Shown in pieces: positions 1 to 8,221 of a stretch of DNA of 38,148 nucleotides. How positions within the stretch are numbered: position 1 is the first letter of the stretch; every line of letters starts with the position of its first letter. Origin of the DNA: Oscillospiraceae bacterium. Lineage in GTDB: Bacteria > Bacillota > Clostridia > Oscillospirales > CAG-272. Location of the stretch: the NCBI GenBank assembly GCA_015063725.1, contig SVTP01000025.1:1-38148 (forward strand). The letters run 5' to 3'. Below the pieces are notes generated by a model. The model did not search any database. It had not been told where the DNA came from and saw only the letters and a list, made by a program, of their open reading frames with translations. Made by a program: the position numbers and the translations under genes.

Positions 1-1
1 T

Positions 2-56
2 CCAAATATGTTTTTTAGTTTTGACTGGCAGGTCTCTTCTATTATAACATATTTGG
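2..56. repeat. 11-bp perfect inverted repeat at the window edge
   Basis: Positions 2-12 (CCAAATATGTT) are the exact reverse complement of 46-56, separated by 33 bases. No U-run follows, so it is not an obvious terminator. It lies downstream of whatever gene precedes the window, and its role is unknown. Confidence 0.5.
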
Positions 57-87
57 AGGATTTCCTCTCACCGGTTAACCTCTTTTG

Positions 88-114
88 AACCCCGCCACTA
101 TGGCGGGGTTTTCG
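88..114 (+). terminator. Rho-independent terminator of an upstream gene outside the window
   Basis: A 9-bp GC-rich stem (88-96 with 102-110, AACCCCGCC / GGCGGGGTT) with a 5-base loop is followed by TTCGTTTT. It would end a plus-strand transcript entering from the left. The A-rich left flank is too short for a good terminator in the other direction. Confidence 0.65.
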
Positions 115-120
115 TTTTGC

Positions 121-320
121 AAAAAAGTGCGCCAACCGAAGCCGGCGCACCGAAAAACGCAAACTCCAATTGTTGCTACACAAAAACAAATTGATGGGAT
201 GCTCTCCTAACCAACTCGCGGAATTTGCGGTTTTGCAAATTTTGATGAGTTGGTGGGGATGGGGACAAAGCCCTCTACAAAAATAGAGAGCTATCCCGTA
301 AATATTTGTTTTTGTGTAGC
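121..320 (-). ncRNA. Structured small RNA, copy 1 of a two-copy family
   Basis: A transcript of about 200 nt is predicted from the promoter at 327-355 to the U-run at 126-121. The 5' end (320-304) pairs perfectly over 17 bp with 191-175. Inside that, 297-286 pairs with 206-196 (one bulge), then 254-247 with 217-210, then a hairpin 241-235 / 228-222. The hairpin carries the motif AAAACCGCAAAT (234-223). A single-stranded linker with GTTTGCGTTTTT (164-153) leads to the terminator hairpin 150-144 / 133-127. Copy 2 at 6116-6347 has the same layout, unrelated stem sequences and an almost identical tail. No reading frame with a ribosome binding site is evident. The class was not recognised. Confidence 0.72.
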
Positions 321-326
321 ATATTC

Positions 327-355
327 ATTATAGCACGTTTGGTAAAGTTTGTAAA
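327..355 (-). promoter_or_regulatory. Sigma-A promoter of the copy 1 small RNA
   Basis: On the minus strand, TTTACA (355-350), a 17-bp spacer and TATAAT (332-327). The predicted start, about 320, is exactly the first base of the outer RNA stem. Confidence 0.75.
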
Positions 356-437
356 CCCTTTTTTCAAATTTTTTAAAGGAGCGACAAAAAAACTCGCCGC
401 ACACATTTGTGTACGGCGAGAGGGATGTTATGGAGTA

Positions 438-2633
438 TCAGCGTTTTTTGCGCTTGTAAAGGAATACCATTGCGGGGATGAGCAAGCAGAGCGGCAGAAC
501 GAATGCCAACAGAACGACCAAAACGGTAACACCGTTTGTGCCAATGCTCAAGCTGTAGGTGGAGATCAGCGTTGAGGGAACGGTGATGCCTTGGTAGGTG
601 TTGCTTGTCATCCAATTTGCGGCATCCTCAATGAGGACAAAGTTTCCGCCCTTCGAAAGGGAGTATCCCAGGGCGGTTGCCGAATCGGGGGATGCGAGCC
701 ACAACAGTGTTCCGTCACCCTTTTGTGCAACGGCTGCGGTGACGTATTTCTCGCCGGTTTCTTCTCCTTCTTCGCCGTTATCGTAAATAACGATCAAAGA
801 TCCCGTTGTTTCTCCCGCATACAGGAGTGGCAACACCGTCACACCCTCGGGGGGCGTCTCGGCAATTTTGATGGCATGTGCCGTTATAACGGTAAACAGA
901 CCGTCAAAATTCTTGGTGATATCGTGGGCGGCGATGTGAGAATAGAAGTAATCGGAACGACTAATAGAACAGCTATAGTCCGTATCCGATTCGCACACGA
1001 TGTTCCTATCAGCCATCACGTCAAGCCCGAATTCACGTGTTACGCTATGCAAATTAGGCATATTGGCGTAGTAACAGGAGGTGATGAGAAAGACCTTTCC
1101 GCCTTTTGCAAGATAGCTCGAAAGCGCGGCGGCTTCTGCCTCGGTAAGATCGGTTTGCGGGGTGTGCAAAATGAGCAGGTCGCAGTCATCGCCAATATCG
1201 AGCGGCGAGGCGATATTTTCAAAATAGTAGCCGCCGGCTATCAGGTGAGCAGAAAGCGAGGCATCCATTGCATCCGCAGAGCCAAAGATCTTGGCGGTGG
1301 GGGCATCATCGGATGCGACGTAATGAATAGCGTTTGTCAATCTTGCGCAACCGTCAAAATACGCTACCGTTGTTTGCGCGTTGTAAAGCTGCGCGCCATA
1401 GGCAACGGCTTGCTCGCCGTACTCTCCATAGCTTTGCGTTTGCAGGTAATTGGCATACGCGCTCAAAAGATAAGCATATTGCAAGGCGGAGAAGGTCATC
1501 TGCAGGTCGGCGTTATAGTAATAATAAAGATCGTTTTGGTCAAGCAGCATGTGACGCTTATTCGATGCGACAATAAAGCTTTGGTCGCTCAAGCCCGTAG
1601 CACCGTAACGCTCCAAAACGGCGGTCTCTTTTGCCGTATTGACAATCTTGACCTCTAAATGAGGAGATAGCTCGGCAAGGTCATAAAGGAAATACTGCAT
1701 GTCGGTATCCGCGCTTTTTTTGCCACCGTCCACAAGATAATAAATGGTTACGTTATCCGAAAGCGTTTTGAGGTAGTCCTTGGTCGCGGCAACGATCGAA
1801 AAGGTCTCGGACTTGTTGACCGCAGGGTTGAGAAGTCGCTCAGGAACAAGAGAGGCACCCATGCTTACAAGGAGAGCCAACACAAGCAGGACGGATGCCA
1901 GAACGGTAGCGGTGCGGCGGCGCTTGGGGAGTGTGAAGTCACCGCGTCTGCGCTTGCACAAAAGTGTGCCGACCGTCAAAAGGAGCGCAATTCCAAAAAG
2001 GAGCGAGCAGAGGTCGGCAATGGGAAAACGTCCATACGTAAAGGCATAAAAGAGCCCGATGGGGTTGATTGCCGTCAGGAGTGCAAGGGGCGTCTCCCCC
2101 AAAGGCAACAGACTGATCAGGAAATGAAAAAGATAGAATGCCACCGACGGGATATAGGCGCATACTGCACCCACACGCACGTTTTTGATAGCAGCAAGAA
2201 TGGCTTGCACCGCCAAGAGAAGCAGGGATATGAGCAGAACGCAGCCAAAAATCGAGGTGTAAACACTGCCCACGGGAATGTTGCCAAAGGCGGAGAGCAG
2301 AGCGGGCAGGAGCGCCAGCTCCAACAAAGGGATCACGCATACGGTCAGGGCTGCCAAAAAGCGACCGACGGTAATGGCGAGGGGGGAGATGCCTGTTGCA
2401 AAATAGCAATCCTCAAAATGGGTGTGTTTTTGTCTGCGGTCGGCAAAAATTTGAAAGAGGGGGAGTACGATCAAAAAGACCGGTGTCAGATATACGGGGA
2501 TGAATTGCAATCCGCCCATGGGGGCAAGGATTGCTGTGCAAACGCCCACAGCTGCCAAAAGGATCGCTAATAGGATGTAGGTCAACCGAGTGCGAAAATA
2601 GAGCTTTAATTCCTTACGGTAAACAGAAAACAT
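438..2633 (-). CDS. ABC-2 permease fused to a GldG-like domain
   Basis: A 731-residue membrane subunit of an ABC-2 type exporter. The first ~230 residues hold about six hydrophobic segments typical of the GldF/ABC-2 permease. A seventh follows near residue 245. Then comes a ~440-residue extracytoplasmic region resembling the GldG/ABC auxiliary domain (e.g. DLLILHTPQTDL and a GGKVFLITS strand). A final membrane helix near 700-725 ends in a basic tail. This mirrors GldF and GldG joined in one chain. The ATG overlaps the stop of the ATPase gene (TGATG), so the two are translationally coupled. The substrate cannot be read from the sequence. Gliding motility is not implied, since GldFG homologues are common in non-gliding bacteria. 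Confidence 0.8.
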   Translation of the reverse strand: MFSVYRKELKLYFRTRLTYILLAILLAAVGVCTAILAPMGGLQFIPVYLTPVFLIVLPLFQIFADRRQKHTHFEDCYFATGISPLAITVGRFLAALTVCVIPLLELALLPALLSAFGNIPVGSVYTSIFGCVLLISLLLLAVQAILAAIKNVRVGAVCAYIPSVAFYLFHFLISLLPLGETPLALLTAINPIGLFYAFTYGRFPIADLCSLLFGIALLLTVGTLLCKRRRGDFTLPKRRRTATVLASVLLVLALLVSMGASLVPERLLNPAVNKSETFSIVAATKDYLKTLSDNVTIYYLVDGGKKSADTDMQYFLYDLAELSPHLEVKIVNTAKETAVLERYGATGLSDQSFIVASNKRHMLLDQNDLYYYYNADLQMTFSALQYAYLLSAYANYLQTQSYGEYGEQAVAYGAQLYNAQTTVAYFDGCARLTNAIHYVASDDAPTAKIFGSADAMDASLSAHLIAGGYYFENIASPLDIGDDCDLLILHTPQTDLTEAEAAALSSYLAKGGKVFLITSCYYANMPNLHSVTREFGLDVMADRNIVCESDTDYSCSISRSDYFYSHIAAHDITKNFDGLFTVITAHAIKIAETPPEGVTVLPLLYAGETTGSLIVIYDNGEEGEETGEKYVTAAVAQKGDGTLLWLASPDSATALGYSLSKGGNFVLIEDAANWMTSNTYQGITVPSTLISTYSLSIGTNGVTVLVVLLAFVLPLCLLIPAMVFLYKRKKR

Positions 2634-3433
2634 CAGTTTTTGCCCTCCTTTTCGTCACCTTCCAGCACCTCATAGTCACCGCTTTTCTCGGTCAGCATAC
2701 TCCAACGGGTGCGTTTGCGCGGTTTGGCTGCTTTGGGGGCAGAAGCATCGGGCGCGGTGACGGAATACTCCGCCAAAAGCTCCTCGGCTGTAGCAGGGGC
2801 AATGGCTTCCAGGGCTCCGTCCTGCAGAACGATGATCTCGTCGCACATCTCGCACAAGTCCCCGAGGGATGGCGTGCAGAGAAAGATCGTGTACGTGTCG
2901 CTAAAATACTTGATCAAGTCGCGCATCTTTTGCGCATCCTTGGGGATAAGCCCCGAGAGGGGAGAGGAGAGTATCAAAATTTCGGGATTACCCAAAAGGG
3001 TCTGCAAAAGGCAAAGAATGCGTCCCTCACCATGCGAAAGATTGGCTATCAAACGGTCTTTTTTGTCGGCAAGGTCGGCAAGCTCCAGCAGCTCATGCGC
3101 GCGGCGGAGCGTTTTGTCATAGGAGAGCGCACGCAGGTCGGCAACAGACATCAAATATTCAATTGGAGTTAATTCGCCGTCGGGGAGTAGGTCGGGTGGG
3201 AGATAGCCAATGCCGCGACGTGCCTGACGGGCTTCGCGATGCAGGTCAAAGCCGCCTGCCAAAATCACACCGTCCGTGGGGGTGCGCGCGCCCGACATCA
3301 GGGAGCAAAGAGCAACGGCATCTGCATAGTGCGACGAAAAAACGCCATACGTCTTGCCGTTTGGCAAACGAAAGCTGACGTCCTTTACCGCACCTGCACC
3401 GCAAGCGCCCCAAACCGATTTCAATTCTAACAA
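2633..3433 (-). CDS. Degenerate ABC transporter ATP-binding subunit (GldA-like)
   Basis: A 266-residue ABC ATPase-fold protein, partner of the permease it overlaps. The fold is recognisable (opening LELKSVWG, TDGVILAGGFDL, IGYLPPD Q-loop area, GNPEILIL, IIVLQDG), but the catalytic motifs are gone. The P-loop place (about residues 31-42) reads VFSSHYADAV with no GK[ST]. The signature is LSHGE (132-136). Walker B is ILILSS where DE is expected (152-157). The H-loop is CTP instead of TH (186-188). A basic then acidic C-terminal tail follows. I chose TTG 3433 because GGAGGG lies 7 bases upstream; an earlier TTG at 3448 has no ribosome binding site. Either it is a pseudo-ATPase that still regulates the permease, or it is a decaying gene; the open frame favours the first. 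Confidence 0.75.
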   Translation of the reverse strand: MLELKSVWGACGAGAVKDVSFRLPNGKTYGVFSSHYADAVALCSLMSGARTPTDGVILAGGFDLHREARQARRGIGYLPPDLLPDGELTPIEYLMSVADLRALSYDKTLRRAHELLELADLADKKDRLIANLSHGEGRILCLLQTLLGNPEILILSSPLSGLIPKDAQKMRDLIKYFSDTYTIFLCTPSLGDLCEMCDEIIVLQDGALEAIAPATAEELLAEYSVTAPDASAPKAAKPRKRTRWSMLTEKSGDYEVLEGDEKEGKN

Positions 3434-3574
3434 AGTCACGCCCTCCAATCAAAGAGTTCTTTACCCTATATATTACACCAATTTTGTGTCTTGCATTTGA
3501 CTGCATTATGACTTTTTTATGACCTGATGAAAAAAGCTCCTTTGTCAAAAACGCTTCTTTTTTGTCAAAAAGAC

Positions 3575-3603
3575 TTTACAAAGGAAAAAAAGAGTGATAT
3601 AAT
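3575..3603 (+). promoter_or_regulatory. Sigma-A promoter of the YD-repeat lipoprotein gene
   Basis: TTTACA (3575-3580), 17 bp, TATAAT (3598-3603), with a start expected near 3610. AAAGGAG sits just before the ATG at 3645. Confidence 0.75.
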
Positions 3604-3644
3604 GAGCCTATACATCATTTTTTGACATTAAAGGAGAAAAACGT

Positions 3645-4637
3645 ATGAAAAAGACAATGAAGCGTATGTTGGTGCTCTTTTTTGCGTTGTTGATCTGTGT
3701 GCTCTTCGCTTCGTGCGATAATAAAAAGCAGGAGGGAGAACAAGATGCCACCGGATCGAGTAATAACGACATTCAAACGACAGATGAAACCTCGGGGGAG
3801 CCGGATGAAAATGTAGAGCAGTCCAAAGGCACCCGCTTTTTGCCTGTTAACGTGAGTTGCAGACAATGGTACGGAGACAATGCTGAAGACAGTTTTTATA
3901 CGAATATTGCTATTTTTTATGACGAATCAAACCGCCTCAAACAGAAAGAACTTTTATTTTTCGATGACGAAATAAATATTAGTGGCACAAAGGATTATAT
4001 TTATGACGAAAAAGGGAATTTAATTGAAGAAAGTTACGTCGATTCTGAGGGTGGGAGCTACACCAATGAATATATTTACGACACAAATGGAAATATAATT
4101 AAAATAGTTTATGCCAGCCCTGTAGAAGAAACTATTACTGAGTACACCTATGATGATAGGGGAAATGTAATCAAAGAAGTTTTTACGGATTCTAATGGGG
4201 CAACCTGCAGTCGCGAATATACTTATGATATGGAAGGAAATGTAACACAAGAGATTTATGAAGATTTTACTGCCCTTTCTCCTGTGTTAGGTGTATGGAG
4301 TTATATTTACGATGAAACGGGTAATATGACGAAAAGGATTTGGGCAGATCTTGACGGAAATGTTATTAAGAGCTATCATTATTCCTACGATACAGATGGT
4401 CACTTAGTCAAATATATTTGCGAGACATCCGATGGCGTTGTTGAGGAAATGGCGGATTATGGCTATGGCACAAGCGGTACTTTATCAGGGGCCTTTTTTA
4501 CTTTTTCTAACGGTTGTAGAGAACGAATAAAAATAAAATTTGAGCTCTTTGAATTGCTGTACGAAATGACTGACGAGGAATATCAGAATTTTATTATGGA
4601 TTTAATCAACGCTTGCCGTCCCTCCACATGGGAATAA
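3645..4637 (+). CDS. Lipoprotein with RHS/YD-type repeats
   Basis: A 330-residue exported lipoprotein. A basic N-terminus and hydrophobic stretch end in FASC, making Cys24 the lipidation site, followed by an acidic, Ser/Thr-rich linker. From about residue 100 to 270 there are five or six degenerate units of the type YDxxGNxxxExxxDSxGxxxxxxYxY, as in the YD repeats of RHS proteins. RHS repeats normally build a large shell around a toxin; here there are few and no toxin domain, so this is a small extracellular beta-repeat protein of unknown function. The gene is clearly more AT-rich than its neighbours, suggesting transfer. It is monocistronic, with its own promoter and a strong terminator. Confidence 0.72.
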   Translation: MKKTMKRMLVLFFALLICVLFASCDNKKQEGEQDATGSSNNDIQTTDETSGEPDENVEQSKGTRFLPVNVSCRQWYGDNAEDSFYTNIAIFYDESNRLKQKELLFFDDEINISGTKDYIYDEKGNLIEESYVDSEGGSYTNEYIYDTNGNIIKIVYASPVEETITEYTYDDRGNVIKEVFTDSNGATCSREYTYDMEGNVTQEIYEDFTALSPVLGVWSYIYDETGNMTKRIWADLDGNVIKSYHYSYDTDGHLVKYICETSDGVVEEMADYGYGTSGTLSGAFFTFSNGCRERIKIKFELFELLYEMTDEEYQNFIMDLINACRPSTWE

Positions 4638-4640
4638 GAA

Positions 4641-4669
4641 AAGCGAGCCGCAACTGCGGCTCGCTTTTT
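4641..4669 (+). terminator. Rho-independent terminator after the YD-repeat lipoprotein
   Basis: Stem AAGCGAGCCGCA (4641-4652) with TGCGGCTCGCTT (4655-4666) then a T-run. A near copy follows the unrelated gene ending at 8221. Confidence 0.85.
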
Positions 4670-4673
4670 CTAT

Positions 4674-4748
4674 CTCTCCCCAAACGCGCGCAAGCGCGCA
4701 CGCCCCCGATGGCACGGAATAACCGTTGCCGTCGGGGGCGTGTGTTTT
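4674..4748. repeat. GC-rich palindromic repeat, copy A
   Basis: It contains the short palindrome GCGCGCAAGCGCGC (within 4685-4702). Next comes a long hairpin: CACGCCCCCGATGGCACGG (from 4699) against CCGTTGCCGTCGGGGGCGTG (to about 4742). A second copy with the same order and a different loop lies at 8278-8352. It may also end the minus-strand gene stopping at 4759, but no good U-run follows. Confidence 0.75.
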
Positions 4749-4758
4749 TTATTTGCGC

Positions 4759-5934
4759 TTAAATCACCGCCAGCAAGCGGTCGGTTGCCGCCGCGGCGTA
4801 TTCTTCTAATTTGCCGATGTCGCGCAGATAGAACAAAATCGTATAACGGTCGCGCATAACGAGCGCGCGATGGATGCCGCTGATGATCTCCTCGCGGTTG
4901 GTGACCGTTGGCGGAACCTTCATTTTGATGCAAAATTCCTCTACGGCATCAAAATAGGGAATATAGCGCCCGATCAATTCCTTGAGGTGCGCGTCGTCGG
5001 TTTCTTCCAGGAGCATCTTATACACGATCGCAATCAGACGCGTGGCTTCGCAGACCTCCAAGCCGTGCAGATGTGGGGGACGTCCGTTCTCAACGTCGAA
5101 CAATTCCCATGCGTGTGCCACAATGTGCTCAGATCCCGAAGCAGGTCGGGAGTTGCCCGTATACGCCATGCCAAGACCTGTTACAAGAAAGCCCTCCATC
5201 ACGTTTTTTACGCATACGGGGTCGCGATTTGCAAGCAGATAGCCGTTTTCCAAGCACTTGTTGGTGGCATCGAGGACGTCGGCGGCAATCTTTTGGCAAA
5301 AATATTCGCCGCTGTAATCGCGCGCAAGCTCCCAATCAAGCAGCCCCGTGTATTTGCCAAACATGTCGCCAATGCCAGCCAGCATCATTTCCCAAGGGGC
5401 ATCTTTGAGGACGTCGAGGTCACCAATGATGTATTTTGGGGTGGTCGCCTGAACGGTCGTTTTGGTCCCGTCGTGCAAAAAGGGAGAGCCCGCCGAGGCG
5501 TAGCCGTCCATCGAGGGGGCGGTCCCTACCACCGCGTAGGGCAAATTGAGGCGGAAAGAAGCAAGACGGCAGGAGTCATTGATGGTTCCCGAGCCGACCG
5601 CCAAAATGAGATCGGGCAACAGGGAATACGCAAAAATGTTGGGTTTTGCCGCAATGTCCTGCGCGTTGAGGATGATCTCGCCGAGCGTGGTAGCATCGGG
5701 GAGAACAACGTCGCGGTCGATGACGTGAGCGGTATAGAGCATACCGTTCTCTCTTAAAATCTGTTCCACGCGAGCACCTGCCGCACGATAGGTGTTTTTG
5801 TCGGCAACCAGATAAACGCGGTGATAATCCTTGAGAATTTGCGGAATGTGCGCAATCGCACCTGCACAAATGTCATAACCCTCCAAGGGCGCACGATGCT
5901 TCTTTTGCGCACACGTGCAAGCAAATTCGATCAT
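4759..5934 (-). CDS. egsA: sn-glycerol-1-phosphate dehydrogenase (AraM/EgsA type)
   Basis: A 391-residue member of the iron-alcohol-dehydrogenase/glycerol dehydrogenase fold that reduces dihydroxyacetone phosphate to sn-glycerol-1-phosphate with NAD(P)H. Visible signatures are the nucleotide-binding GSGTINDSCRLAS, the GTAPSMDGYAS segment typical of G1P dehydrogenases, and SGSEHIVAH plus PPHLHGLEV, which supply metal-binding histidines. Length fits the bacterial AraM group. ATG 5934 is chosen because AAAGGGGA precedes it and the upstream extension contains the promoter. It is monocistronic. A heptaprenylglyceryl phosphate synthase (PcrB), the expected partner, is not in the window. Confidence 0.85.
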   Translation of the reverse strand: MIEFACTCAQKKHRAPLEGYDICAGAIAHIPQILKDYHRVYLVADKNTYRAAGARVEQILRENGMLYTAHVIDRDVVLPDATTLGEIILNAQDIAAKPNIFAYSLLPDLILAVGSGTINDSCRLASFRLNLPYAVVGTAPSMDGYASAGSPFLHDGTKTTVQATTPKYIIGDLDVLKDAPWEMMLAGIGDMFGKYTGLLDWELARDYSGEYFCQKIAADVLDATNKCLENGYLLANRDPVCVKNVMEGFLVTGLGMAYTGNSRPASGSEHIVAHAWELFDVENGRPPHLHGLEVCEATRLIAIVYKMLLEETDDAHLKELIGRYIPYFDAVEEFCIKMKVPPTVTNREEIISGIHRALVMRDRYTILFYLRDIGKLEEYAAAATDRLLAVI

Positions 5935-5982
5935 AATAAGTCCCCTTTCTTGAATTTTGATAGGGTATTGGATACTGCTTGC

Positions 5983-6011
5983 ATTATACATTAAATTTTT
6001 AAAAAAGTCAA
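5983..6011 (-). promoter_or_regulatory. Sigma-A promoter of the G1P dehydrogenase gene
   Basis: On the minus strand, TTGACT (6011-6006), 17 bp, TATAAT (5988-5983), leaving a leader of about 45 bases. Confidence 0.75.
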
Positions 6012-6027
6012 GAGTCTTTCCAAAAAT

Positions 6028-6046
6028 CCGCGCGCAAGCGCGCACG
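6028..6046. repeat. 19-bp GC palindrome, left copy flanking the AT-rich island
   Basis: CCGCGCGCAAGCGCGCACG is identical to 8289-8307 and nearly identical to 4685-4702. It can form a 5-bp hairpin with a CAAG loop. Here it stands alone, without the adjoining long hairpin. Confidence 0.7.
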
Positions 6047-6080
6047 AGGGGACGGAGGAGGGGATTTTTGCAAAAAGGGC

Positions 6081-6109
6081 TTTACAAACAAAGAAAGTTG
6101 TGATATAAT
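6081..6109 (+). promoter_or_regulatory. Sigma-A promoter of the copy 2 small RNA
   Basis: TTTACA (6081-6086), 17 bp, TATAAT (6104-6109). The predicted start, about 6116, immediately precedes the outer stem of the RNA. Confidence 0.75.
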
Positions 6110-6115
6110 GACTAT

Positions 6116-6347
6116 GCCAAACAAATTTCATAAAAGCTGTCATAGGGATATTTATCTCTTTTTATAGGGGATACTATACCTTTTTTCGGCGTATACTAAA
6201 TCAGTGCTATGGATTTTGGTAAAACCGCAAATCCCTTCAGTGCTGATTTGATACGTCGAAATATCCGTATGATTTGCTTGAAATTTGTTTGGCGACAATT
6301 GGGGTTTGCGTTTTTCGGTGCGCTGACTTCGGTTGGCGCACTTTTTG
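6116..6347 (+). ncRNA. Structured small RNA, copy 2 of a two-copy family
   Basis: About 232 nt from the consensus promoter to a terminator. The outer stem 6117-6130 / 6279-6292 is 14 perfect bp. Stem two, 6140-6153 / 6259-6272, has 13 of 14 paired. There is a side hairpin 6163-6167 / 6174-6178. Stem three is 6190-6194 / 6251-6255 plus 6198-6208 / 6239-6249 (11 bp, two G-U). The inner hairpin 6211-6216 / 6229-6234 holds AAAACCGCAAAT (6221-6232). The linker carries GTTTGCGTTTTT (6304-6315), followed by the terminator 6318-6323 / 6336-6341 with five T. The tail matches copy 1 almost base for base. It may act in trans, or as a leader/attenuator for the gene at 6429, though copy 1 has no such gene in view. 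Confidence 0.75.
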
Positions 6348-6428
6348 TTTTTCGGGGGTATTTGCCTATGCAAAATTGAAGTTTTATCATCTATCTTATA
6401 CATGTATCAAATTAAGGAGAAATGAAAA

Positions 6429-7307
6429 ATGGGTGAACAAGTAAAAGAATTTGAAACAATAAACACTGAACTAAATCACGAAAGCGCAGGCCGAAAAGGT
6501 ATTTATAAAAAAAACAAACTTATTCTTATAATTAGCGCAACATTGATAGCAATAATCTTATTTGTGGTACTTCTTATTGCAGTTATTATCCCCACTTCTA
6601 AAGCAAACGCTTATATAGAAAAATTGGATACTTGGGTCTCGCTTATGAATTTCGAAGGTGTTTCCAAAGAAGAGAGAGAAAGTACTGCGTTTAAAAATAA
6701 GATTAAAGATTTACACGAGGAACTTGGATTCTCTTTTAGTAACCGAGTAGAAAAAATTCCTATGGACGCACTTAGGAAATACATTTTAACTAATGATGTC
6801 GATAGATTATTAACAGCAACAATGAATGCCAACAACTACGATTATCATAATGCCTTATGGGTTGTGTATGAAACTGTTTACGAATTGTATCCCGAAAAAT
6901 TCACAAAAGTAATTTTAGACGAGAATGCTACCTCGGGATATTATATTGATAATCCAACAGAAAACCCCGGCGAAACGCGAGAAGTCGAGAGCGAGCGCAA
7001 AGGATACACGGATTTATATAAGATAACTCATTACGGTGACTTTGCCGTACTAGAAGAAACAAGATGGGGATATAATGACGGCAAATTAGGTTGGGAGAAC
7101 GGAGTCTTCTATGATGAACCAGGTTATTGGTTCCAACGCACCTATATAGATGTTTATTATAAAGGAAAGCATTTTTGGACGATATATGACTCATTATCAG
7201 AGGTGCAAGGTGTTATGTTTTATGAAACCGACACCCATTTTTGCAAGCTTTACTATCGCGAAGGACATCTGACAAATGGTGGTTACTCTAAAAAAGATAC
7301 CAATTAA
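6429..7307 (+). CDS. Single-pass membrane protein of unknown function
   Basis: A 292-residue protein I do not recognise. A polar cytoplasmic N-terminus (~28 residues) and basic RKGIYKKNK precede one membrane helix (about 30-53), then a ~240-residue outer domain. The first part is charged and probably helical; the second is rich in Tyr/Trp and looks like beta strands. AAGGAGA lies well placed before the ATG. The gene is strikingly AT-rich with A/T-ending codons, unlike the surrounding housekeeping genes, and is followed 38 bases later by another membrane protein gene, probably co-transcribed. It directly follows the copy 2 small RNA. Confidence 0.65.
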   Translation: MGEQVKEFETINTELNHESAGRKGIYKKNKLILIISATLIAIILFVVLLIAVIIPTSKANAYIEKLDTWVSLMNFEGVSKEERESTAFKNKIKDLHEELGFSFSNRVEKIPMDALRKYILTNDVDRLLTATMNANNYDYHNALWVVYETVYELYPEKFTKVILDENATSGYYIDNPTENPGETREVESERKGYTDLYKITHYGDFAVLEETRWGYNDGKLGWENGVFYDEPGYWFQRTYIDVYYKGKHFWTIYDSLSEVQGVMFYETDTHFCKLYYREGHLTNGGYSKKDTN

Positions 7308-7345: not shown

Positions 7346-8221
7346 ATGAATGATTTTACAATAATATTACTGTGTATTGCTTGCCCGCTTGTAATTTGTG
7401 CTTTAGTAGGTGTTGAAATATATTTTATTACCCGATACACAAGAAAAACGGCAATACTAAACCAAATAAGGACAAGTGCAGATAAATACTTCAAACACAT
7501 ATTTGAGCATTACGTTGAGATGGTTGCTCCCGCTATCCTCTACGGAACCCCTATTGAGATAGCAATAAAAAACAATTCTATTTATCTAATAAACGATGGT
7601 AAATTCTTTGCTATAAATATTGATGATTTTACATCAATTACATACAAAAACGGGAAATACATTTTTAGGTTAACAAATTTAGCCATCGCAAATACGAAGG
7701 TTTTTGCCATAAAATGTGACGATGATAGACTACTCAAACATCTGAACATCGCAATGCCCGATTCGCAAGAAGAAACTACGAACCCCAAATCAATAAAAGA
7801 GTTTTTATCTACATCAACCAATAGATTTGTACTTGTTGGTATTGTTTATGCTATATTCTTTATAATATTTGCTTTGACCGGAAATGCATTATATTACGTA
7901 ATAATGACAGTTCTATTTGCGGCAGGTCTAACTATTTATATCGTGCATCACTATGTTACAAATTTAAAAACTTTAACAGAAGGTACTAAATCGGAAATAC
8001 TCGAAAAGAGAGAAAAACAAAAACTGTTTTACGGTAAGGTTATAGCAGTATGTCTTGGCATCGTTATTGTAATAACATTACTTTGTGCAATTCCTACTAA
8101 CAATAATAACGATGATTATGACCCATATGAGTGCTTTTGGTGTAATGGTACCGGAATGGCTGAAGATGCATATGGAAAATTACATTATTGTTCTCATTGT
8201 CACGGTTCGGGTAGACAATAG
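7346..8221 (+). CDS. Multi-pass membrane protein ending in a DnaJ-type zinc finger
   Basis: A 291-residue protein. One N-terminal helix (about 4-26) is followed by a ~120-residue soluble region that may be a PH-like strand domain (FFAINIDDFTSITYKNGKYIFRL). Two helices lie near 155-195 and a fourth near 230-252. The last ~30 residues carry CFWCNGTG and CSHCHGSG, two CxxCxGxG motifs as in the zinc centre of DnaJ. One such pair could bind one zinc ion. AT-rich like the gene before it, with GGGAGAAGG ahead of the ATG. Function unknown; no chaperone or J domain is present. Confidence 0.65.
   Translation: MNDFTIILLCIACPLVICALVGVEIYFITRYTRKTAILNQIRTSADKYFKHIFEHYVEMVAPAILYGTPIEIAIKNNSIYLINDGKFFAINIDDFTSITYKNGKYIFRLTNLAIANTKVFAIKCDDDRLLKHLNIAMPDSQEETTNPKSIKEFLSTSTNRFVLVGIVYAIFFIIFALTGNALYYVIMTVLFAAGLTIYIVHHYVTNLKTLTEGTKSEILEKREKQKLFYGKVIAVCLGIVIVITLLCAIPTNNNNDDYDPYECFWCNGTGMAEDAYGKLHYCSHCHGSGRQ

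Follow-up and report, generated by a model that had tools for sequence, protein, structure and literature searches.

Positions 6081-6347 of the 38,148-nt stretch of Oscillospiraceae DNA analysed here (contig SVTP01000025.1; the whole stretch is referred to as the window) are read by us, at roughly even odds (about 0.5), as a portable promoter-leader-terminator module that works as a cis-acting transcription-attenuation switch. Inside it, window 6116-6346 is confirmed as a structured RNA served by a promoter and an intrinsic terminator of its own. It belongs to an apparently undescribed RNA family that is multi-copy in gut Clostridia. The RNA is usually not a stand-alone unit, the order being promoter, RNA, terminator and then a gene, and the leader RNAs probably help to decide the transcription of this adjoining, otherwise unrelated and often surface-protein gene. 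The evidence is sequence-level and consists of the architecture, the covariation of the closing stem P1 and of a pseudoknot, the position relative to genes, the copy number and a lipoprotein bias among the downstream products.

The RNA (copy 2; all its elements lie on the plus strand) had been noticed in a sequence-only reading as a structured RNA between a consensus promoter and a Rho-independent terminator, and both signals were recovered: the promoter at 6081-6109 (TTTACA-17-TATAAT) has 11/12 matches and an extended TG, and the terminator at 6316-6347 consists of a hairpin (6317-6342) followed by a U-run. P1 closes the RNA directly behind the promoter, with its 5' arm at 6116-6130 and its 3' arm at 6279-6293, both placed by predicted fold and covariation; the middle and upper nested stems of the sequence-only reading also reappeared in place in the predicted fold. 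Above P1 follow, in order, P2/P3 (5' arm approximately 6139-6150, predicted fold with covariation for P3; 3' arm approximately 6259-6272, predicted fold), a U-rich one-sided bulge at 6151-6186 that could serve as a hinge, the hypervariable stem P4 (5' arm 6187-6207, 3' arm 6240-6258) and the apical loop. The apical part holds strand A of the hairpin P5 (6211-6219) and strand B (6221-6235), a possible partner either of A, in P5, or of strand C (GGGGTTTGCGTTTTT, 6301-6315, located by helix scan and covariation), with which 14/15 of its positions can pair here. The predicted fold has an energy of -95.5 kcal/mol (z = -10.07), and none of 200 shuffles was as stable.

Copy 1 lies on the minus strand of the window at 121-320, behind a TTTACA-17-TATAAT promoter at 327-355, and comprises P1 (304-320/175-191), strand B (220-234), strand C (153-167) and a terminator (121-152); its predicted fold (121-323, minus) has a z of -9.35. 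The earlier proposal that the stems of both copies follow the same order stands for P1 and the apical part, but the middle region of copy 1 is predicted to fold unlike that of copy 2. Comparison bore out that the tails of the two copies are almost the same, and the P1 changes between them are compensated (GCCAAACAAA/TTTGTTTGGC vs GCTACACAAA/TTTGTGTAGC), in line with the view that pairing is kept despite sequence change. The source genome holds a third copy on contig C16 and a shorter, diverged one on contig C38; with the short-form model (E ≤ 0.001) five matches were obtained there, three of them to the long copies, one to the C38 copy and a weak one on C14.

Two copies alone are a thin basis for such a view, to which the covariation among 26 homologues adds support. 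A helix scan of their alignment returned a second strong helix of 15 columns, joining strand B (AAAANCGCAAATTCC) to strand C (GGAGTTTGCGTTTTT); as C is located between P1 and the terminator, the B-C helix is an H-type pseudoknot between loop and tail, a feature absent from the sequence-only reading. In this long-form alignment (A4; 26/29 sequences, with L028, L034 and L038 omitted as short or degenerate), both sides had changed in 10/15 pairs of P1, 7/8 of P3 and 5/15 of the pseudoknot, and the joint covariation score of the three helices was 0.344, compared to 0.168 after shuffling (0/500 as high) and at most 0.113 for slid versions; the reading as a real, structured and covarying RNA is thereby supported. 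The short form (alignment A6; 20/21 short-form loci, L238 with its apparently broken terminator being omitted) scored 0.386 vs 0.188 when shuffled (0/500), with both sides changed in 8/14 pairs of P1 and in 2/9 and 3/5 pairs of the pseudoknot. Among the 168 copies with a readable strand C, all 15 positions of B and C paired in 118 and at least 14 in 152, whereas shuffled cores reached at least 14 in 3/168. Within the source genome, copies 1 and 2 pair at 14/15 positions and the C16 copy at 15/15, as does the C38 copy, which has the most divergent strands. Taken as comparative evidence, these data firmly support a long-range B-C pseudoknot. Alignment A7, which held reverse-strand matches of the palindromic rod, was not used, and alignment A8, whose rows were drawn from 100/117 loci found by the exact tail pattern, was not used to judge the pseudoknot because this pattern leaves strand C near-invariant. 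The shuffled controls for the B-C pairing and for the -10 box count were single-base shuffles.

Upstream of P1, 153/173 copies have a -10 box with no more than one mismatch (53/173 for shuffled upstream sequences), and a hairpin of -8 kcal/mol or better occupies the terminator site in 166/175. At least 150 nt of downstream sequence were available for 166/175 distinct copies; an ORF with a ribosome-binding-like site begins no more than 60 nt from the U-run in 128/166 of these and no more than 120 nt from it in 142/166 (median 25 nt; two copies too close to a contig edge were left out of the downstream-ORF listing). When restricted to ORFs of at least 100 aa, this count was 99/159 copies, compared to 26/158 other terminator-like sites and 367/3943 random sites. 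Since the ORF starts so near the U-run that no room is left for a second promoter, the gene is presumably reached by read-through. In the case of copy 2 the distance from the U-run to the ATG at 6429 is 82 nt, longer than the median, and the gene (6429-7307, plus strand) encodes a 292-aa protein with an N-terminal membrane segment; no significant family was assigned to it, the sole match at E ≤ 0.1 being ETRAMP (E = 0.042), below the cut-off.

The completeness of the promoter-to-terminator unit would also suit a small RNA acting in trans, with its 3' end at the terminator and only incidental expression of the gene behind it. Copy 1, for which no ORF was found in the 120 nt left before the contig end, and some tandem copies are not directly followed by a gene, and 24/166 copies lack an ORF within 120 nt, some being the first in tandem arrays. 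These copies, like the long gap of copy 2, also weigh against the attenuation-switch reading. We regard the trans-acting explanation as decidedly unlikely, as ORF starts are far commoner after the terminator than at control sites and the leader is repeatedly accompanied by the same gene families. The free small RNA of the sequence-only reading is likewise not what the wider family suggests: the usual site directly before a gene, the own promoter and the many copies per genome together point to a leader-type module. At L153 (554-1295), L043 (1455-1981) and L048 (2158-2674), two or three units stand in tandem with no full-size gene in between.

P5, in which strand A pairs with strand B, excludes the pseudoknot, as both use the same strand B. 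Its covariation score in the 26 sequences was reached in 3/500 shuffles; among 110 copies, in an alignment fitted to a P5-containing model, the score was reached in 0/500 shuffles and the count of pairs changed on both sides in 26/500. No covariation support for P5 was obtained in the short form, where its score was reached in 204/500 shuffles. On these comparative data, a switch from one of the two folds to the other is plausible but falls short of proof. A device fixed at low expression, in which a constant small fraction leaks past the terminator, no signal is sensed and the main role of the knotted 5' RNA is to stabilise the message, would account for the strong terminators, the sealed 5' end and the lack of any sign of an overlapping antiterminator, and by analogy its layout would resemble type III toxin-antitoxin dosage control. 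A constant leak needs no competing helix, so the covariation support on 110 copies for a helix competing for strand B speaks against this explanation, which we consider unlikely.

According to the attenuation-switch reading, the RNA would start at P1 and form a long rod, whose apical strand B would pair either with strand A in P5 or with strand C in the 15-position H-type pseudoknot. The terminator stands directly behind C and would be followed, as a rule, by the ribosome-binding site of the gene. The choice between P5 and pseudoknot would fall as the polymerase moves through C and the terminator, setting read-through in cis in answer to a putative signal. As output, the pseudoknot emerging just upstream of the terminator could alter termination, or a putative factor could bind to it. 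The switching of the two folds, the regulated read-through and the signal are steps that we infer. As expected of a cis-acting attenuator leader, the RNA is situated in the 5' region on the same strand and directly upstream of the gene, has an intrinsic terminator between its structured domain and the gene, and shows a conserved covarying fold. An overlapping antiterminator was not found when own and swapped leaders were compared: neither the terminator arms nor the RBS region paired better with their own than with swapped leaders (absolute z ≤ 1.5), giving no sign of antitermination or RBS sequestration in a test of low power, as z was only -2.2 even for the real B-C pairing. LoaP-dependent antitermination was rejected as a candidate, with 0/10 genomes over the NF033641 cut-off; each of the ten had one sub-cut-off match, as did 11/14 control genomes.

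Pseudoknot riboswitches with terminator platforms include preQ1, SAM-II, fluoride and ZTP, and in type III toxin-antitoxin loci such as ToxIN a promoter is followed by a pseudoknotted RNA, a terminator and a gene reached by read-through. Judged by layout and by analogy, the module may work like the former or like the attenuated read-through of the latter. With the riboswitches it shares the 5' leader, the H-type pseudoknot and the intrinsic terminator followed by RBS and gene; in contrast to them, it has no Rfam match and no overlapping antiterminator was found, while one leader design serves many unrelated genes and each copy has its own conserved promoter. With ToxIN-type loci it shares the order of promoter, pseudoknotted RNA, terminator and a gene probably reached by read-through, whereas the proteins encoded behind it vary widely, with lipoproteins and membrane proteins frequent among them, and no toxin family was present among the 25/50 Pfam families listed (114/141 proteins). 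The leader was therefore not filed as a riboswitch, no antiterminator having been found, nor, given the lack of a toxin family among those listed, as a type III toxin-antitoxin.

A broader proposal, possible although we hold it to be rather doubtful, is that of a self-contained switch class, i.e., a portable Clostridia module whose hairpin-or-pseudoknot choice sets the read-through into accessory genes, dozens of them, unrelated and biased towards the envelope. If true, a large regulon would be governed by a single RNA design that needs no classical antiterminator, and the pseudoknot would perhaps act on RNA polymerase, which may represent a way of controlling a terminator that dispenses with an overlapping antiterminator. 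Should the leader reading be right, gut Clostridia would control many surface and accessory genes by one knotted RNA module, and the leader would provide a handle on a regulon whose genes are not connected by protein annotation.

Of the 146 downstream proteins, 78 are singletons and the rest form clusters with at most 18 members. By pattern and hydropathy calls of our own script, 38/112 downstream proteins of at least 100 aa were lipoprotein-like (24/413 background ORFs) and 84/112 had a membrane or export segment (170/413). Family scans covered 114/141 downstream proteins, with 25/50 Pfam and 25/274 NCBIfam families listed; the largest Pfam family, SHOCT, accounted for 7/114 proteins and was followed by DUF6809 and zinc ribbons, while PADLOC returned five families with one member each. 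The gene groups that recur behind the leader in different genomes are a cysteine-rich small protein (11), an SLOG-like group (7) and a loose, mostly exported cluster (18). The small cysteine-rich proteins (CLGNGEQGFECCCDECDYYLLCFPEFD; 11/146) were observed at loci L043, L048, L051, L087, L111, L117, L126, L127, L134, and L143.

Different genes stand behind RNAs whose identity to copy 2 along their length is 76-81%, and such diverse cargo behind similar RNAs, the tandem arrays and the presence of the RNA next to pgk in some and not other genomes of the genus would fit a mobile cassette, i.e., a cargo-carrying mobile unit whose end is recognised through the RNA-forming DNA and for which transcription control comes second. 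The P1 arms, however, change together and are not fixed like terminal repeats. The comparison made for this explanation covered the pgk neighbourhood only, where 3/30 loci had a tail-like match and the neighbourhoods differ in general; at one of these three pgk loci there is a homologous gene (42.6% over 108 aa), a point in favour of inheritance, and we see little chance that the cassette explanation is right.

In a comparison of seven close copies, the arms of P4 were 0.40 and 0.39 identical and the other elements 0.66-1.00 identical. P4 (window 6187-6207/6240-6258) appears almost wholly replaced between otherwise very similar copies. An antisense comparison of P4 with the first 300 nt downstream (147 copies) gave no complementarity beyond chance, the longest complementary run being 7.09 for own vs 6.98 for swapped sequences. 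Stem replacement or a locus-specific identity element are offered only as ideas.

A DNA search gave matches in 57/118 genomes, including the source genome. The long-form covariance model (R1) had matches in 124/394 genomes of the order (70/168 genera) and the short-form model (R2) in 95/391 genomes of the class (56/223 genera), while in the phylum sample only the source genome matched among 398 at the stricter E ≤ 1e-5; the genomes without a match include at least 14 from the same class. As these many-genome searches scored 6-8 candidates each under strict filters, the genome counts are lower bounds; ten genomes searched in depth had 5 to 27 matches each. The exact tail pattern occurred in at least 117 stretches of named genomes, and the titles among the matches listed were uncultured Clostridia, Oscillospiraceae, Clostridiales, Ruminococcaceae, Ruminococcus, Firmicutes or plain 'bacterium', on account of which the homologues are labelled Clostridia; many of the matches listed came from ruminant gut. 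In viral DNA, two exact patterns of the RNA hit 0 and 1 stretches, and a plasmid search with one short-form query gave no match. Partial matches to the RNA were noted in three unverified faecal 'Bacteriophage sp.' scaffolds (L293, L294, and MT835503.1).

The failure of the sequence-only reading to assign the RNA to a known class was borne out against Rfam 15, where no family reached its gathering score on copy 2 or on 20 long-form loci. In E-value mode nothing overlapped copy 2 and sub-threshold matches alone touched copy 1, while 16/21 short-form loci yielded one sub-threshold match, mir-3149 (26.9 bits vs a cut-off of 100). A loose likeness to 6S RNA had also been suggested, and a 6S-like RNA acting as an open-promoter mimic that binds RNA polymerase would agree with the long rod of about 200 nt and its large asymmetric internal loop. 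The 6S model RF00013, however, gave no match on window 1-6450 at E ≤ 10, and the many copies sited before genes also argue against this explanation, which is extremely improbable in our judgement. The only 6S match of the source genome at E ≤ 10 is a separate, weak candidate on contig C33 (12339-12556, minus strand; L013), probably its true 6S RNA, with 43.3 bits vs a cut-off of 46.4.

No published description was found in Rfam 15 and open-licence papers, a scope that leaves the major RNA-motif catalogues outside. Structured-RNA candidates from the human microbiome, 508 of them directly upstream of genes, were reported in PMC8040213, and fragments of the pseudoknot leader family could be among them; the available passages of that paper contain no description of the architecture. 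The open-licence papers covered also include PMC11109978 and PMC8632094.

Two further genes on the plus strand of the window were recorded. At 3575-4637, an RHS-repeat lipoprotein-like gene follows a TTTACA-17-TATAAT promoter without a leader RNA between them. At 7346-8221, next after the gene of copy 2, lies the gene of a membrane protein with a terminal CxxCxGxG-like motif and a weak DnaJ-centre match (E = 0.018).
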